Below, one piece after another: positions 25,897-32,893 of a stretch of DNA of 64,000 nucleotides. The notes below the pieces were generated by a model. It saw only the letters and a list, made by a program, of their open reading frames with translations. It did not search any database and had not been told where the DNA came from. Location of the stretch: contig NZ_JARXIA010000022.1 in assembly GCF_031127875.1 (NCBI RefSeq), positions 1-64,000 of the forward strand. The letters are read 5' to 3'. This stretch comes from Pelagicoccus sp. SDUM812005 (GTDB lineage Bacteria; Verrucomicrobiota; Verrucomicrobiia; Opitutales; Opitutaceae). Position numbers and translations under genes: made by a program. Each line of letters begins with the position of its first letter. The first letter of the stretch is position 1.

Positions 25897-27045
25897 CTAA
25901 GCGACCGGCGCCCCTTCGAGCAAGGCCTGCTCGTAGCAAGCCAGGTACTTGGGAACGATCTTCTCGGCGGTGAAACGCTCCACCGCCCGTTCCTTGGCCG
26001 CAAGCCCCAAGGCGCGAGCCCGGGCCGGGTCTTCGACCAGCTCGTCGATACGGGCCGCCATCTCGTCGCAATTCCCAAAGTCGCAAAGCAAGCCGGACAC
26101 GCCTTCCTCCATCACTTCCGGAATCCCGCCCACTCGAAAGGCCAAGGACGCCTTGCCCAAAAACATCCCTTCCAGAATGCTCAGGCAAAAGCTCTCCGTC
26201 TCCGAAGTGTAGATACCTAAATCGCTCGCTTCGATGTAGTCTTCCACCGGATACCCGTTCTGACGCACGATCACCGTCGACTCCAAGCCAAGCTCCCGCA
26301 CCTTCCCCTCGAACTCCTCGAAAGAGTTACCCGCCAGCACGATCAGTTTCAGGCGGGAGCGAAACTTGCATCGGGCCACCGACTCCAGCAACAGGTCGAT
26401 CCGCTTGACCGAACGCAGGTTCGAAGCGTGGAAAAGCGTGAAGCAGTCTCCGAGCTCCAGGTCCTTCCTCATCCGCTCCCGGGTCGAAGTCGCCTGACCG
26501 GGCGTATAGAAATTATGGATAACCTCCACCGGCTTCCCCACGTCGAAAATCTCCTCCGTGTCCCGTCTCAAACTATCCGATACAGTCGTGACACGATCCG
26601 AGTGCTGCAGCGAATACTCGATTGCCCGTCGGTAGTTCGGGTCGCGACCGAGCAAAGTCGTATCCGTGCCGTGCAGCGTCGTCACGATGCGCAAGCGATC
26701 CTGCTTGGCCATTCGCTTGGCGATATACGCCGCCGTCGCATGCGGCACCGCGTAGTGAGCGTGGATGATGTCCAAATGGACTTGGTCGGCCACCTCGGCG
26801 ATCTTGACCGCCAGCGGCAGCGTATAGTCAGCGTATTCGAAAAGCTTATATTTCGAAACCGCGACCGCGTGAAAATGGATGCGCGGCAAGGACGTATCCA
26901 AGCGAACCGGCTTCGCGTAACTGAAGAAATGCACCTCGTGCCCACGAGCCGCCAACTCCATTCCCAATGCCGAAGCAAGAATTCCGCTGCCCCCGACCAA
27001 GGGGTAACAAGCGATGCCAATCTTAAGTGGGTTTTCGGAGTTCAC
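25897..27045 (-). CDS. bshA: N-acetyl-alpha-D-glucosaminyl L-malate synthase
   Basis: BshA joins UDP-GlcNAc to L-malate, the first step of bacillithiol synthesis. The 382-residue GT4 protein has the family pattern: CYPLVGGSGILASALG (donor loop), GHEVHFFSYAKPVRL, YADYTLPLAVKIA, IIHAHYAVPHATAAY, TTLHGTDTTLLG, DRVTTVSDSLRRDT, VIHNFYTPG and the E-x7-E motif ESFCLSILEGMFLGKASLAFRVGGIPEVM. The combination of malate-site residues in FEYADYTLPLA and gene order with bshB makes this assignment firm. Its start immediately abuts the bshB stop. Confidence 0.93.
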   Translation of the reverse strand: MNSENPLKIGIACYPLVGGSGILASALGMELAARGHEVHFFSYAKPVRLDTSLPRIHFHAVAVSKYKLFEYADYTLPLAVKIAEVADQVHLDIIHAHYAVPHATAAYIAKRMAKQDRLRIVTTLHGTDTTLLGRDPNYRRAIEYSLQHSDRVTTVSDSLRRDTEEIFDVGKPVEVIHNFYTPGQATSTRERMRKDLELGDCFTLFHASNLRSVKRIDLLLESVARCKFRSRLKLIVLAGNSFEEFEGKVRELGLESTVIVRQNGYPVEDYIEASDLGIYTSETESFCLSILEGMFLGKASLAFRVGGIPEVMEEGVSGLLCDFGNCDEMAARIDELVEDPARARALGLAAKERAVERFTAEKIVPKYLACYEQALLEGAPVA

Positions 27046-27762
27046 CTAAAACAGACGAATCCCGCGCGGAGCCGAATTCAACCCATTTACAAGAACAGGG
27101 TCATTCGGCCAGAGGGCTTGAGCGTACTCGCACCCTGCTTGCAGTCCTAAGGTCCGAGCCCGCGAAACCTGCAGGTCCAGGTAACGCCGTGTCTTCATCT
27201 GGGATTGGTGACAGCTCATCAACTCCCGCCAAGCCTCGATCTGCAGTGATACGTCGAAGACGAAGGGCAGCTGGGCAGCAGGCTCCGCCCCAGGAGTAAT
27301 CGCGTAAAAATAGAGCGACTCGATGGCGTGCGGCTTCAGCTCAGCCAAATCGCTTACGCCCGCGTACCGCGCCAGCCGGGCCGCGTCCATAGCCACTTTT
27401 CCAATCGCCACGTGGTCCGGATGCTGGTTTTCCACCCGGCTAGGCGCCAGCAGCACCGAAGCGCCCGTTGCCCGTATGACACGAGCCACTTCCATCGCGT
27501 TTCGAGGGCTGGCAACGATGCGCCCATCGCCGCCGCAATCGAGAAAGGAGAGACTCGCCCCGCAACGCGCCGCAGCAGCCTCGCTTTCCGCGACGCGCTC
27601 CTCCGGAGTCCCGTTGCTTCCCGACTCCCCCTTCGAACAAACCAAGAAATGGATACGGCTCCCCGCTTCCGCTTCCTTCAGCAGAATCGCCCCGCAGCCA
27701 AACTCGATATCGTCGGGATGCGCTCCTACCGCTAGAATGGTTGTTTCCTTACTCACCGACAT
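27046..27762 (-). CDS. bshB: Bacillithiol biosynthesis deacetylase BshB (PIG-L/LmbE family)
   Basis: The start at 27762 (MSVSKETTILAVGAHPDD) is preferred; it overlaps the end of the BshC-like gene by 14 bp. The 238-residue protein has the zinc motif AHPDDIEFGCG, then VCSKGESGSNGTPEERVAESEAAA, LDCGGDGRI and the third ligand in ENQHPDHVAIGKVAMDA. It deacetylates GlcNAc-malate to GlcN-malate. Motif details (KGESGSNGT) match the BshB1 branch. Operon position between the BshC-like gene and bshA supports the assignment. Confidence 0.92.
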   Translation of the reverse strand: MSVSKETTILAVGAHPDDIEFGCGAILLKEAEAGSRIHFLVCSKGESGSNGTPEERVAESEAAAARCGASLSFLDCGGDGRIVASPRNAMEVARVIRATGASVLLAPSRVENQHPDHVAIGKVAMDAARLARYAGVSDLAELKPHAIESLYFYAITPGAEPAAQLPFVFDVSLQIEAWRELMSCHQSQMKTRRYLDLQVSRARTLGLQAGCEYAQALWPNDPVLVNGLNSAPRGIRLF

Positions 27763-28519
27763 AGGCTTCGTCACTGCGTTCAATGGGGTCACGTTCAACA
27801 AACTCGATCTCAGGTGCGTCGTCCAGGTTCAAGTATTTAATCTCCCCCGCTCCAGCAACGTAGTGCGTGCAATGCAAGACCGACTGCATCCACCGCAGGC
27901 GCGTATCGCGCGTCGGCGTGATCTTCGCCTTGTCGCTCGCGTCAGCCTCCACCTGCAAGTAAGAGCTTCCCCCTTGGTGCAAGGCGAAGCCGTCCCCATG
28001 CTTGCGAGCGCGAACCACCTCGCCCTCCAGCATCGTATCCACGAAAAAATCATCCACCGAAATCGCCTTAGCCCGAAACTCAGCCGAACCGGAACGCTCA
28101 ATCCGCACCCCCTCCAGCAGTCCCATCCCGCGATACATCTCCAAGCAAAAGTCGGCTACGCTCTCCGCTTGCACCGAAGCGAAAAGCTCCGCCAACTCCG
28201 AGCTTACGAACTGCGGCAATTGTCGCGCCGTATTGGCCTGCCAACTACGATCCACTCGCTTTGCGAATAGCGGAGAGTACTTTTTCTGGATCTTGTTCTC
28301 GAAAGCAAAATTCAGGCACTGCAGCTCGCCGGTCTTCAAGTGGCAGAGCTTCGTCTGCGTTTCGCGCGGATCGTGATCGCAATCGTGATAAAAGAAAACG
28401 ATTTCCCCGCCTAGTTCGCGTTGCAGTCGCCTCGCCGTCCAAATCTTGGATACGAGAAAACGCTTCGGAAAGAAACCGCAGGGCTGCTGCCCAAAACAAA
28501 TAATCGGAGAGCTACTCAT
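27749..28519 (-). CDS. Half-length BshC-like protein, candidate cysteine-adding enzyme
   Basis: The 256-residue product is encoded exactly where bshC would be expected. Two blocks match the BshC core: residues 9-50, FGQQPCGFF followed by a helix and then VFFYHDCDHD (BshC: TGQQ..GLF..GPLYT, then VPVFW..EDHD), and residues 209-230, LRWMQSVLHCTHYVAGAGEI (BshC: VGGPGEIAY). Canonical BshC is about 540 residues and ends in a coiled-coil dimerisation domain, which is absent here; the interval between the two blocks is also shorter. It overlaps the symporter stop by 8 bp and the bshB start by 14 bp, indicating translational coupling. Inference: it adds cysteine to GlcN-malate. The blocks are seen directly; the activity is not demonstrated. 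Confidence 0.65.
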   Translation of the reverse strand: MSSSPIICFGQQPCGFFPKRFLVSKIWTARRLQRELGGEIVFFYHDCDHDPRETQTKLCHLKTGELQCLNFAFENKIQKKYSPLFAKRVDRSWQANTARQLPQFVSSELAELFASVQAESVADFCLEMYRGMGLLEGVRIERSGSAEFRAKAISVDDFFVDTMLEGEVVRARKHGDGFALHQGGSSYLQVEADASDKAKITPTRDTRLRWMQSVLHCTHYVAGAGEIKYLNLDDAPEIEFVERDPIERSDEAYVGE

Positions 28520-30221
28520 GCGTACCTACGCTCCTTCCCTTTCGAAAAACCGTCTGCTGCAACACAAAGGACAAAAGCATCACCATTCCGCATCCGATCA
28601 AGTTATACCAAAGGTAACCTATCTCCAAGGTCTGATACATTGCCAACACAGCCAATTGGCTCGCGATCGCTGCTGAGAAAACCGCGCTTCCTTTCACCGA
28701 CTTCACAAAAAACGCCACCAGAAACATACCCAAGATGCCCCCGTAAAAGAGGGAACCGAGAATATTAACCGCCTCAATCAAGTTCTCGACCAAGTTAGCA
28801 TACAGGGCAAAGGAAATAGCCAAGCCACCCCAAGCCGCCGTCAGTATTCGAGAAACCCTTACATAATGGGCATCGCTTTGGTCGGCCTTGGCAAGCCGCC
28901 GATAGAAGTCGACCATGGTCGTCGAACCCAAGGCATTCAATTCGGATGCGGTAGACGACATCGCCGCCGCAAAAATAACCGCCACTAACAAGCCAATAAG
29001 CCCCTCCGGAAGGTAGTTCAAAATGAACGTGATGAAAACGTAGTCGGAATCCTTCGCCTCGAAGTCCTCCCCTGCCTTGCCGATCAGCTCCTTCACCTCG
29101 CTGCGTACAAGCAAGGCCTCGGACTCCAAAGCCACCGCTTGCTCCTTGGACAACGCAATGGCAGCCGCGTCTCCTTGGTCCAGGTTCAAGGCAAGAGCGC
29201 GTACCGCTTCAGCCCTTTTCTCGACTACCGCTTCGTACCGATCCTGCAGGGCAGACAAATCGCCCGCGTATTCAGTTTCCGCGACCGCATCCAAGGTCGC
29301 TTGGTTGAAGAATACCGGCGGCTCCTCGAAAAGGTAGAAAACGAAAACCATCACCCCTACGAACAGGATGAAGAACTGCATCGGGATCTTAACGACCGCA
29401 TTGAACAGAAGCCCGAATCGGCTGGCGCTTACCGAACTGCCCGCCAAATAGCGCTGCACTTGCGACTGGTCCGTTCCAAAATAGGATAGCGACAGAAAGA
29501 GACCGCCGAACAAGCCGGACCAAAACGTATAGCGCTCTTCGATATCGAAGGAAAAGTTGACCACCTCCAGCTTATCCATGGCGCCGGCCACCGAAAGGGC
29601 CGTGCCGAAGGAAACTTCGTCCGGAAGGTTGCCGATGATCATAGCGAAGGCTACGAACATCCCGATCAAGATGATTCCCATCTGGTAGCGCTGGGTGATG
29701 CTCACCGCCTTGGTGCCGCCCGAAACCGTGTACAGCACCACCAACGCGCCTACCAATACGATAGTCAGATCGAGGTTCCACCCCAACAACGAGGAAATCA
29801 CAATGGCCGGAGCATAGATCGTAATCCCCGCCGCGAGGCCTCGCTGGATCAAAAACAAAAAGGCGCCCAGGTAGCGCGTCTTGGAATCGAACCGCTGTCC
29901 CAAGTATTCGTAGGACGTGTAGACGTTCAAACGGCGATAGATCGGAATGAAGAACACGCAAATAAAGATGATGGCGAACGGCATTCCGAAATAGTTCTGC
30001 ACGAAGCCCATTCCATCGTCGTAAGCCTTTCCGGGAGTCGAGAGGAAGGTGATCGCGCTCGCTTGAGTCGCCATGACCGATAGCCCAATCGTACCCCAGC
30101 GGATCGAATCATCTCCCTTGAGGTACCCCTGCAAGCCGCCCGAACTCCGCGTGCGCCACATCCCATACGCCGCGATTCCCACCAGCGTTCCGAGCAGAAC
30201 GATATAATCTAAAGTACTCAC
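28512..30221 (-). CDS. Sodium:solute symporter (SSS family)
   Basis: A GTG start at 30221 is chosen because the upstream gene ends in the same GTGA and the protein then begins directly with the first membrane helix (TLDYIVLLGTLVGIAAYGMW). The 569-residue protein has the SSS marks GTIGLSVMATQASAITFLSTPGKAYDDGMGF in helix 1-2 and AAMSSTASELNALGSTTMVDFYR near helix 9. A hydrophilic insert of about 115 residues, helical and charged (FNQATLDAVAETEYAG onwards), splits the middle. Similar symporters in Bacteroidetes lie beside PIG-L and bsh genes. The substrate is unknown; a product of the PIG-L hydrolase or a thiol precursor is plausible. Confidence 0.88.
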   Translation of the reverse strand: MSTLDYIVLLGTLVGIAAYGMWRTRSSGGLQGYLKGDDSIRWGTIGLSVMATQASAITFLSTPGKAYDDGMGFVQNYFGMPFAIIFICVFFIPIYRRLNVYTSYEYLGQRFDSKTRYLGAFLFLIQRGLAAGITIYAPAIVISSLLGWNLDLTIVLVGALVVLYTVSGGTKAVSITQRYQMGIILIGMFVAFAMIIGNLPDEVSFGTALSVAGAMDKLEVVNFSFDIEERYTFWSGLFGGLFLSLSYFGTDQSQVQRYLAGSSVSASRFGLLFNAVVKIPMQFFILFVGVMVFVFYLFEEPPVFFNQATLDAVAETEYAGDLSALQDRYEAVVEKRAEAVRALALNLDQGDAAAIALSKEQAVALESEALLVRSEVKELIGKAGEDFEAKDSDYVFITFILNYLPEGLIGLLVAVIFAAAMSSTASELNALGSTTMVDFYRRLAKADQSDAHYVRVSRILTAAWGGLAISFALYANLVENLIEAVNILGSLFYGGILGMFLVAFFVKSVKGSAVFSAAIASQLAVLAMYQTLEIGYLWYNLIGCGMVMLLSFVLQQTVFRKGRSVGTHE

Positions 30222-30355
30222 GCGTAGAACTTGGTAAACAAATAGAAGGCGATTACCTCCGCTACGAAGAAGAGAGCTACAAACCAGTATACCCGTCTCC
30301 AACTACCGAATACAGGAGCCTGGTCGCTCTCTCGTTTTTCTTTATTCGCTTCCAT
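30218..30355 (-). CDS. 45-residue single-pass membrane protein coupled to the symporter
   Basis: This short frame starts with ATG 9 bp after the PIG-L stop and ends in TGA that overlaps the symporter's GTG start (GTGA). It encodes a charged N-terminus (MEANKEKRESDQ), APVFGSWRRVYW, one membrane helix (VALFFVAEVIAFYLF) and TKFYA. The exact fit between two genes and the amphipathic basic-aromatic border before the helix argue for a real protein, probably an accessory subunit of the symporter, as small membrane partners exist for several secondary transporters. No function is assigned. Confidence 0.75.
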   Translation of the reverse strand: MEANKEKRESDQAPVFGSWRRVYWFVALFFVAEVIAFYLFTKFYA

Positions 30356-30364
30356 CAGTATCGA

Positions 30365-32893
30365 TTATGGTCGTGCGTCAGAGCTGGCTTCATGTCCGAG
30401 AGAAAGCAAGTTCGCAAAAATCCGGTACGCCCCGGGGACGCCCGCGGGCAGCTGGCGAAACCAAGAAATCCCCGTATAAACGAAATATCCTTTCCCATGC
30501 TTGGCGACTAGCAGGCTGCCTTCCCGAGCTGGCTCGCCGGGATCGTTGATCGAGAAAACGGGCGTGAACGCTCGATCCCAGGAATCGGGAAAATAAAGCC
30601 CCCTCTCCTGCGTCCAAAAATCAAAATCGTCGGCCGTGATGCGATTCGGCGAATTCATGACCGGATGCTCCGGCGCGATAACCCGTACCTCAGCCGACTC
30701 GTCCGTCACGCGGTCGCGGGAAAGGCTCAGCGGATACGGAGCGAACTTCTGAGTCTTCAAACCTCGGTTCGTATTGTACTGAACCAACACGGTGCCGCCC
30801 TCTTCGGCGAACCGAAACAGGTCTTCCATTATCGCATCAATATTCTCAACCGTATTGTAGGCGCGGATACCAACGACTACCGTATCGATTCCCACCAGCT
30901 GAGTTTGGTCAAAGCCTTCCGCGGAAAGCTCCACGACCTCGTATCCAATCTCCCGGATGCTGGCCGGTACCACATCGCCCGCCCCCGGCAGGTAGCCGAT
31001 GCGCTGCCCGAACCGGGCCACCTCCAGGCTGACTGCCCGAGTCGCTGCAGTCGCAAACACGGTCTGCTCCCGAATATGATCGTACTCGATCTGGGCAACC
31101 GACTGGTCGAACGCCCCCGCATTGGTAGACAGCCTTGCCGCGATGCTAACTTGCTCCGGCTGCGAGCGGGGCGTCACCGTAAACGAATAGCTTCGCGTGC
31201 CGCCGCTGCGCAGGGTCGGCACCTCGTAAGCCGAAGGCTCCACGGACCAACCTTTCGGCAGGTCGAGCGTCAAGCGCCCCTCGACGTCATCCAACAGAGC
31301 GCTGATGGTAACCTCGACTTGCCGGCTCTCATAGTTCGGGAAAAGCGTGACCGGATTCGCAAACTCGATAGCCGCCGCGGGCAGATTCAGAACCGGGTGG
31401 ATCGTTTCCCCTTTGGCTGGATCGACCTCGCGATAGGAGATCGGCAAGCCCACCAGAACCGCCGTATCCATAATCTCGATCGCAACTTCGGCGTAGAAAG
31501 CGGGGTCGTTCTCCGCCTTGCCAATCAGCAGCTGATCTTCGACGTCGAACATCCCCAGCGTCCCCTCCCTTTCCAGCCAATAGGGCTGAGGGTAGGCCGT
31601 ATCCTCCCCGATCGATACCGAAACCGAATGCTCCACTCGCTCGTTGTAGCTCAATTCCAAGCCGAGCCGCTCCGCATGCTTGGCGAAGGGGATCGCCAAG
31701 CCCACCAACTGGGCCGGAACCTGCGAGCGATTTATCAACTCGAGGGTGAGCTTCATGGAGTCGCCATTGCGAACGTACTGCTCTGAGCTCAAGGCCCTCA
31801 GATCCAGTCCCATGCAGGCCAATACGATCTCGTCCAGCTCGCCTCGCTTGCGCAAGGCCCAGCTCCCGTCGGGAAGTTCCGAGATCGCTTGCCGCAATTC
31901 GAGCAAAGCAGGCACCGAACGAGCAGGATCCCCTACATCGAAGCTGGAAATGATCTCCCTTAGCTCTGCTTGAACCGTATCCGATTTTTCGACACGCGCC
32001 CAAGTCGTATCCACTCCGCTAAAGATGTCCCCTCGCACCGGCGCGCCGACCAGATGCTCGAAGTACTCGATTCGGGAACCGCGATCGATGCGCGTGCCGA
32101 AGCCTTGGCTGAGGTGCTTGCTGCGGCTGGCGGAAGCGATTTCGTTGTAGGACTTTCCAAGCAACGGCTCGAAACCTCCCACATCGATACGGGCATACTT
32201 TTCATCGTCGAAGCTTGCATCGTTGTTCCTGAAGAACCAGCTGCTGGTATTCCAGACCACTCGCTTGGCTTGCCAGGTGTCGACGAACTCGAGCTGTTCC
32301 GGAAAGCGGCTCGGATCCGCAGCGGCCTCGAACGCTTCCAAGGCAAGGATGGTGGAAGCAGTGTGGTGGCCATGCGTGCGACCGGGCTCGAGGCCGAAAC
32401 GCGTAATCAAGACGTCTGGCTGAAAGTTGCGAATCACCCAGACCGTATCTGCCAAAACCGCTTCCCGGTCCCAAATCTGGAGGGTCTCGTCGGGATGCTT
32501 GGAAAACCCGAAATCCTTGGCCCGACTGAAGAACTGCTGACCGCCGTCCACCCTACGGGCCTCCAAAAGCTCTTGCGTACGGATTACCCCAAGCTGGTCT
32601 CGAAGTTCCGGGCCGATCAGGTTCTGCCCGCCATCGCCGCGCGTCAGCGACAGGTAAGCCGTATCGTATTTGCGACCCAACGACAGGTAGGAAATCAGGT
32701 TCGTATTCTCGTCGTCCGGGTGTGCCGCAACGTAGAGGGCTCGGCCCAGCGTATCCAGTTTCTGGAGCGACCAGAGAATTTCGGATCCGGTTCGCGGCTC
32801 CGGGGCGTTCACGGCTTGAGCTTGCAACAGGCTCGTCGCCGAAGCGAGCGAGAGCAGGTAGCAGCTCACGTTTCGGAAAAGTTCTAGGGACAT
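30365..32893 (-). CDS. Large exported PIG-L family deacetylase/hydrolase
   Basis: The 842-residue protein has a signal peptide (residues 1-28). Its PIG-L domain follows with the zinc motif AAHPDDEN (H58, D60, D61), LSLTRGDGGQNLIG, ARRVDGGQQFFSRAKDFGF and the distal histidines in GRTHGHHTAS. The remaining 550 residues are beta-rich (Ig-like regions, about 330-650) and end with a Rossmann-like domain (VDTVVVGIRAYNTVENIDAIM, GGTVLVQYNTNRG, WFRQLPAGVPGAYR). It is the first gene of the run leading through the symporter to the bacillithiol genes and probably acts on an N-acyl glucosaminyl compound outside the inner membrane. Confidence 0.85.
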   Translation of the reverse strand: MSLELFRNVSCYLLSLASATSLLQAQAVNAPEPRTGSEILWSLQKLDTLGRALYVAAHPDDENTNLISYLSLGRKYDTAYLSLTRGDGGQNLIGPELRDQLGVIRTQELLEARRVDGGQQFFSRAKDFGFSKHPDETLQIWDREAVLADTVWVIRNFQPDVLITRFGLEPGRTHGHHTASTILALEAFEAAADPSRFPEQLEFVDTWQAKRVVWNTSSWFFRNNDASFDDEKYARIDVGGFEPLLGKSYNEIASASRSKHLSQGFGTRIDRGSRIEYFEHLVGAPVRGDIFSGVDTTWARVEKSDTVQAELREIISSFDVGDPARSVPALLELRQAISELPDGSWALRKRGELDEIVLACMGLDLRALSSEQYVRNGDSMKLTLELINRSQVPAQLVGLAIPFAKHAERLGLELSYNERVEHSVSVSIGEDTAYPQPYWLEREGTLGMFDVEDQLLIGKAENDPAFYAEVAIEIMDTAVLVGLPISYREVDPAKGETIHPVLNLPAAAIEFANPVTLFPNYESRQVEVTISALLDDVEGRLTLDLPKGWSVEPSAYEVPTLRSGGTRSYSFTVTPRSQPEQVSIAARLSTNAGAFDQSVAQIEYDHIREQTVFATAATRAVSLEVARFGQRIGYLPGAGDVVPASIREIGYEVVELSAEGFDQTQLVGIDTVVVGIRAYNTVENIDAIMEDLFRFAEEGGTVLVQYNTNRGLKTQKFAPYPLSLSRDRVTDESAEVRVIAPEHPVMNSPNRITADDFDFWTQERGLYFPDSWDRAFTPVFSINDPGEPAREGSLLVAKHGKGYFVYTGISWFRQLPAGVPGAYRIFANLLSLGHEASSDARP

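Follow-up and report, generated by a model that had tools for sequence, protein, structure and literature searches.

In the window, i.e., the whole stretch of DNA that was analysed (64,000 nucleotides from Pelagicoccus sp. SDUM812005), we identified a gene for a compact protein that is very probably a BshC-type cysteine ligase completing bacillithiol synthesis, both the catalysis and the bacillithiol product being inferred. The compact BshC-type family to which it belongs is new, while BshC itself is already known as the putative cysteine ligase of this pathway. The link to BshC rests on the predicted fold, the order of the motifs and the genetic context, and not on sequence profiles.

The compact gene and its operon

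The compact gene has an ATG start preceded by AAGGAG and a TAA stop, and its coordinates, strand and length agree exactly with those of the original prediction (Table 1). On the minus strand, the transcription order is long PIG-L gene, symporter gene, compact gene, bshB-like PIG-L deacetylase gene, bshA. The overlaps proposed for both sides of the compact gene are present: 8 bp with the symporter gene (28512-28519) and 14 bp with bshB, provided that the latter starts at ATG 27762; its frame stays open back to an alternative earlier start, TTG 27801. The claim that bshA and bshB are both intact and adjacent is borne out for bshA, which exceeds its equivalog cut-off, and for adjacency, as the bshB stop directly abuts the bshA start. 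For bshB it holds only in part: the best match of the protein, TIGR04001 (BshB1), is under the cut-off of 182.5 bits, so that its intactness depends on membership of the PIG-L family and on context. The match of the long PIG-L protein to TIGR03446 (mycothiol conjugate amidase) is likewise under the cut-off (277.15 bits). Pelagicoccus sp. SDUM812002 carries an 86% identical relative of the compact protein in the same gene order.

Table 1. Compact gene, its motif blocks and its neighbours in the window
Feature	Position	Strand	Remarks
Compact BshC-like gene	27749..28519	minus	256 aa; conserved family, predicted BshC fold
GQQPCG block, residues 10-15	28475..28492	minus	canonical counterpart GQQAG
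HDxDHD block, residues 45-50	28370..28387	minus	five canonical proteins have [EQ]DHD without the first His-Asp
RDTRLRWMQ..CTHYVAGAGE..Y block, residues 204-229	27833..27910	minus	canonical RP..Q ... GPxE..Y
bshB-like PIG-L deacetylase	27046..27762	minus	PF02585 73.4 bits; TIGR04001 125 bits
bshA (GlcNAc-malate synthase), GTG start	25897..27045	minus	TIGR03999 376.6 bits, cut-off 273.7
Sodium:solute symporter, conserved upstream neighbour	28512..30302	minus	PF00474/TIGR00813
Long PIG-L protein, 842 aa, conserved upstream neighbour	30365..32893	minus	PF02585; TIGR03446 48.3 bits

We found that the same genes are commonly associated with relatives of the compact gene. Among the best 80 of 326 loci, bshA and bshB are each located downstream in 76, the symporter gene lies upstream in 76 and the long PIG-L gene in 63, and all four neighbours occur together in 57. 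Missing neighbours often reflect short contigs. No bshA was detected within 6 kb downstream of the compact gene in loci L062 and L076, no bshB within 6 kb in L027 and L098, no symporter gene within 6 kb upstream in L058 and L068, and no long PIG-L gene within 6 kb upstream in L075. In four loci (L027, L063, L098 and L133), bshA comes after the compact gene with no bshB found in between. MazG, considered as a further downstream partner, was set aside (present in 2 of the best 80 of the 326 loci).

Two phylum members that encode canonical BshC (genomes G171 and G224) possess the organization bshC-bshB-bshA; thus, the compact gene occupies the same slot ahead of bshB-bshA as canonical bshC. In these two genomes, the 18 kb surrounding canonical bshC yielded no relative of the symporter or of the long PIG-L protein. 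In both genomes, a gene that looks like a SAM methyltransferase, an assignment made by appearance and not from a search, is positioned directly upstream of bshC (L121:738-1496, L130, L131). Its position hints at NmbA, which is no more than suggestive, and none of the best 80 of the 326 compact-gene loci contains a match to it. As for the upstream neighbours of the compact gene, the start of the long PIG-L protein resembles a signal peptide, although this is a reading of the sequence and was not computed. Given such a start and the weak likeness to mycothiol conjugate amidase, a role of the long PIG-L protein and the symporter in dealing with exported bacillithiol conjugates is possible, by inference only, the two perhaps forming a pair that processes and takes up these compounds.

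Predicted fold and motif order

Sequence-profile searches in Pfam, NCBIfam, PHROGs and PDB sequences did not provide a link to BshC, and the profile search against PF10079 and its TIGRFAM counterpart that had been proposed as a check thus failed to reach the compact family. The compact protein matches no family at E≤1 in Pfam, NCBIfam or PHROGs, including MshC (TIGR03447) in NCBIfam, and the family profile found nothing relevant when searched against PDB sequences. None of 18 compact family members passes the PF10079 or TIGR03998 cut-off; each of these profiles touches a single member (best E 0.12 and 0.029, respectively), while all five canonical BshC controls pass PF10079, PF24850 and TIGR03998. 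PF24850, the coiled-coil dimerisation domain, has no match in the 18 members, in accordance with the predicted lack of the coiled-coil part. Only a short tail follows R243 in the compact protein; visual comparison equates this residue with R363 of BshC, just before PF24850. Since the compact proteins neither reach the profile cut-offs nor have the coiled coil, both of which define the catalogued family, we describe them as a compact BshC-type family and not as members of TIGR03998; sequence profiles alone do not prove their kinship with BshC.

The structural evidence comes from an AlphaFold2 model of the compact protein built from 18 sequences (mean pLDDT 93.5, pTM 0.90) and searched with Foldseek against 350,542 PDB chains. 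B. subtilis BshC (4WBD) is the sole match at E≤0.001 (E 3.4e-9, probability 1.00, TM-score 0.67 by query length, 15% identity), followed from E 2.9e-3 by aminoacyl-tRNA synthetases, mostly GluRS. A second model, of the protein from locus L042 (record labelled Obscuribacterales; 28-row alignment, pLDDT 94.2), again matches 4WBD (E 1.7e-10, TM-score by query length 0.70) and nothing else below 0.001. With 15-16% identity and rmsd values of 6.3-6.6 across some 305 columns for the two models, the match is a distant one, yet according to these models the compact protein has the BshC core fold (TM-scores of 0.67-0.70). The structural match to BshC that the original prediction called for is therefore obtained as far as fold and alignment go, 4WBD standing alone at E≤0.001 and the motif blocks being collinear. 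Other class I aminoacyl-tRNA synthetases (GluRS, GlnRS, TyrRS, TrpRS) appear as weak matches of the compact models, whereas MshC and CysRS themselves are not among the 50 matches listed in either search.

Compared with BshC (YllA; TIGR03998, PF10079 plus PF24850; 4WBD), the compact protein is about half as long (canonical proteins have 521-554 residues) and lacks counterparts of the roughly 80 N-terminal residues and of the coiled coil. What the two share, in the same order, is GQQ, DHD, a beta hairpin, R..Q..GxxE..Y and a final R. The GQQPCG block aligns with BshC G88-Q90 and the HDxDHD block with D132-H133-D134; the beta hairpin ahead of the last block is retained. In the compact protein, strand 6-11 ends at GQQ, DHD follows strand 39-44 and AGxGE follows strand 219-222. 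We thus recovered the GQQ, DHD and YVAGAGEI-type blocks, named from the start as common to both proteins, in collinear order.

Of 109 compact proteins gathered, 101 distinct ones were retained for alignment; their median length is 257 residues (range 243-275), the shortest being truncated by a contig end. As many as 48 positions are identical throughout, including G10, Q11, Q12, H45, D46, D48, H49, D50, C125, R207, C217, H219, G223, E226, Y229 and R243. Within the GQQPCG block, P13 and G15 are likewise present in all 101 proteins, and C14 in 99, being replaced by Ser in the other two. C14, H45, D46, C217 and H219 have no counterpart in the five canonical BshC proteins. As judged from the alignments, the compact family differs from BshC also inside the motif loops (GQQPCG and HDxDHD against GQQAG and [EQ]DHD). 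A CysRS-like zinc site formed by the invariant Cys and His residues was considered and is kept only as a weak idea, given the Ser at position 14 in two proteins. It is also disfavoured by the location of C217 and H219: the former lies shortly before strand 219-222 and the latter opens it, and we infer this end of the strand to face away from the motif loops.

Profile-profile comparison with the five BshC proteins gave a local score of 35.1 for the 18-row alignment (best of 20 column shuffles 25.4, reversed 16.4) and 33.6 for the 101-row alignment (best of 60 shuffles 23.4). The former run aligns the N-terminal GQQ...DHD and the latter the hairpin and the C-terminal R..Q..AGxGE..Y. By itself, the C-terminal block scores 30.2 (best shuffle 21.4), and N-terminal columns 1-75 score 21.1 (probability 2.4%; best shuffle 19.8). 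HHalign gives the local runs probabilities of 20-36%; a forced global alignment, with a probability of 2.2%, is collinear. The combined collinear motif GQQ ... DHDxxE ... R..Q ... GxxE..Y ... R is found in 96 of the 101 compact and all five canonical proteins and in none of 20,000 shuffles; as written, it is missing in five compact proteins. Among 2,860 open frames of at least 150 aa from the window and 152 loci, it matches 133, which BLAST resolves into 126 compact and seven canonical BshC proteins with no others. Many of the 152 loci overlap, and these matches are thus not independent. The pattern was moreover written with both families already in view, so it demonstrates a shared order and is not an independent discovery.

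Distribution and co-occurrence with bshA

We confirmed 326 relatives of the compact gene in genome contigs which, with the 48 positions identical in 101 proteins, places the gene beyond chance; the family is widespread and not peculiar to the Pelagicoccus strain. The best 80 of these relatives, i.e., the closest ones, are labelled mostly as Verrucomicrobiota, with some Melainabacteria, Obscuribacterales and Cyanobacteria and one Phycisphaerales, but labels taken from MAGs are possibly wrong. A search of 72,556 plasmid records for the compact gene gave no match.

Among 141 genomes of the class, the compact protein is encoded by 18, in one of which (G079) the gene is interrupted by contig ends; the other 17 proteins share 59-64% identity with that of the window over the main match. 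BshA exceeds its cut-off only in the same 18 genomes, the next best glycosyltransferase reaching 173 bits with the BshA profile. PF10079 was not detected in any of the 141 genomes, while it was found in the B. subtilis, Thermus and Deinobacterium controls. A full-length canonical bshC elsewhere in the genome would have refuted the original prediction; we searched for it with PF10079 and found none in the strain's own genome (given as 99.51% complete), nor in 50 named carriers among the best 80 of the 326 relatives. In 288 genomes of the phylum, which overlap with the class sample, 17 encode the compact protein and two, G171 and G224, canonical BshC. These 19 are the genomes with BshA (E≤1e-60), and none of them has both forms or neither. 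In a separate sample of 146 genomes of a second lineage (the class that includes G383, a genome selected for its compact gene and the source of L042), 21 genomes encode the compact protein, and exactly these have BshA; PF10079 was searched in only six of these carriers, which belong to the 50 above, and none has it. No stops interrupt the compact gene matches in any of the three samples. Hence, in the samples searched, bshA is met with one cysteine-ligase candidate per genome.

We also considered an MshC-like substitute for cysteine addition, and none of the 141 class genomes passes the MshC cut-off (TIGR03447). A single CysRS/MshC-like match was found in 139 of them; G079 has two stretches of one open frame and G131 none. 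These matches are presumably the housekeeping CysRS, as is, we presume, the only such match of the strain's own genome (contig C30), also under the MshC cut-off.

In a midpoint-rooted protein tree, for which the true root is not known, sequences of the second lineage sit among those of Verrucomicrobiota, a placement that, judged by the tree, is to be expected from transfer; support for one group is weak (64/36). The longest branch (0.91) belongs to the compact protein of L132 (G307), which has 58% identity yet retains the full five-gene order.

Proposed function and its alternatives

Taken as a BshC-type ligase, the compact protein would act last in the pathway, translated probably from the same mRNA as BshA and BshB, which is itself an inference. 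BshA would couple UDP-GlcNAc with malate, and BshB would take off the acetyl group to yield GlcN-malate, the product attributed to these two enzymes in the accessible part of a review (PMC4360819). In the last step, the compact protein would attach cysteine to the free amino group of GlcN-malate, and bacillithiol would result. The Rossmann-like core of the compact protein is predicted to retain the BshC motif loops. The loops that follow strands 6-11, 39-44 and 219-222 would form a pocket that may bind cysteine and, presumably, ATP; the ligation reaction and the use of ATP are inferred. There is a good probability that the compact protein works like BshC. The mechanism of cysteine ligation by BshC was termed unknown in 2015, and the activity of canonical BshC had not been shown in vitro by then, as far as the accessible part of the review indicates (PMC4360819).

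The half length and the missing coiled coil could suggest a decaying remnant of full-length bshC. This explanation is barely credible in the face of an identity that stays near 60% between families and classes, the uniform length of the 101 proteins, 72 invariant positions in the 18-row alignment and the lack of internal stops. It also seems highly improbable that the compact protein is merely an accessory or regulatory BshC-like protein and that some unrelated enzyme, so far unrecognised, adds the cysteine. Although its failure with the BshC profiles would be compatible with such a role, the co-occurrence with bshA is without exception in three samples (two of them overlapping), the motif residues are invariant, no MshC-like candidate emerged, and both BshA-encoding genomes without the compact gene have canonical BshC.

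Somewhat more room, albeit little, is left for an operon that makes a different thiol, the compact enzyme ligating cysteine or another amino acid to another glycoside as a result of a different BshA acceptor or BshB substrate. This would suit the sub-cut-off BshB1 match, the family-own residues near the motifs that the five canonical BshC proteins lack, and the strain's own genome, in which YpdA (bacillithiol disulfide reductase) has only eight weak matches, the best of 68 bits against a cut-off of 339.9. Malate is nevertheless favoured as the acceptor, since wherever the compact gene occurs in the sampled genomes, BshA exceeds the equivalog cut-off. A BshC-type ligase completing bacillithiol synthesis remains the preferred reading.

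CysRS and MshC use a metal site for choosing cysteine. It is conceivable, but at present speculative and rather doubtful, that the compact protein is a self-sufficient minimal ligase free of the coiled coil, with a pocket rebuilt around the family-specific Cys14 and His45-Asp46, maybe as a metal or thiolate site that chooses cysteine, and that it explains the apparent absence of low-molecular-weight thiols in Verrucomicrobiota and in some non-photosynthetic cyanobacterial relatives. A 2018 survey of finished genomes, in the part accessible, lists Verrucomicrobia among the major lineages for which a low-molecular-weight thiol has been neither documented nor predicted; it filtered by 30% identity, a BLASTP E of 1e-20 and similar length (PMC6282198). 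A RefSeq survey of 2025 required coverage >80%, identity >25% and similar length, and the string "verrucomicrobi" does not occur in its main text as available (PMC12719100). With 256 residues and 15-16% identity, the compact protein falls outside the filters of both surveys, as far as their accessible parts describe them. Among the open-access matches listed, no title or abstract describes a compact or short BshC or bacillithiol in these groups; one further paper, judging by its accessible part, deals with how abundant bstA is in biofilms and has no bearing on the compact gene (PMC10881302).

The compact form would thus stand in for the usual BshC in many bacteria for which no protective thiol had previously been predicted. 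As a natural half-size core with its own invariant residues, it may separate what is needed for catalysis from what is needed for dimerisation.
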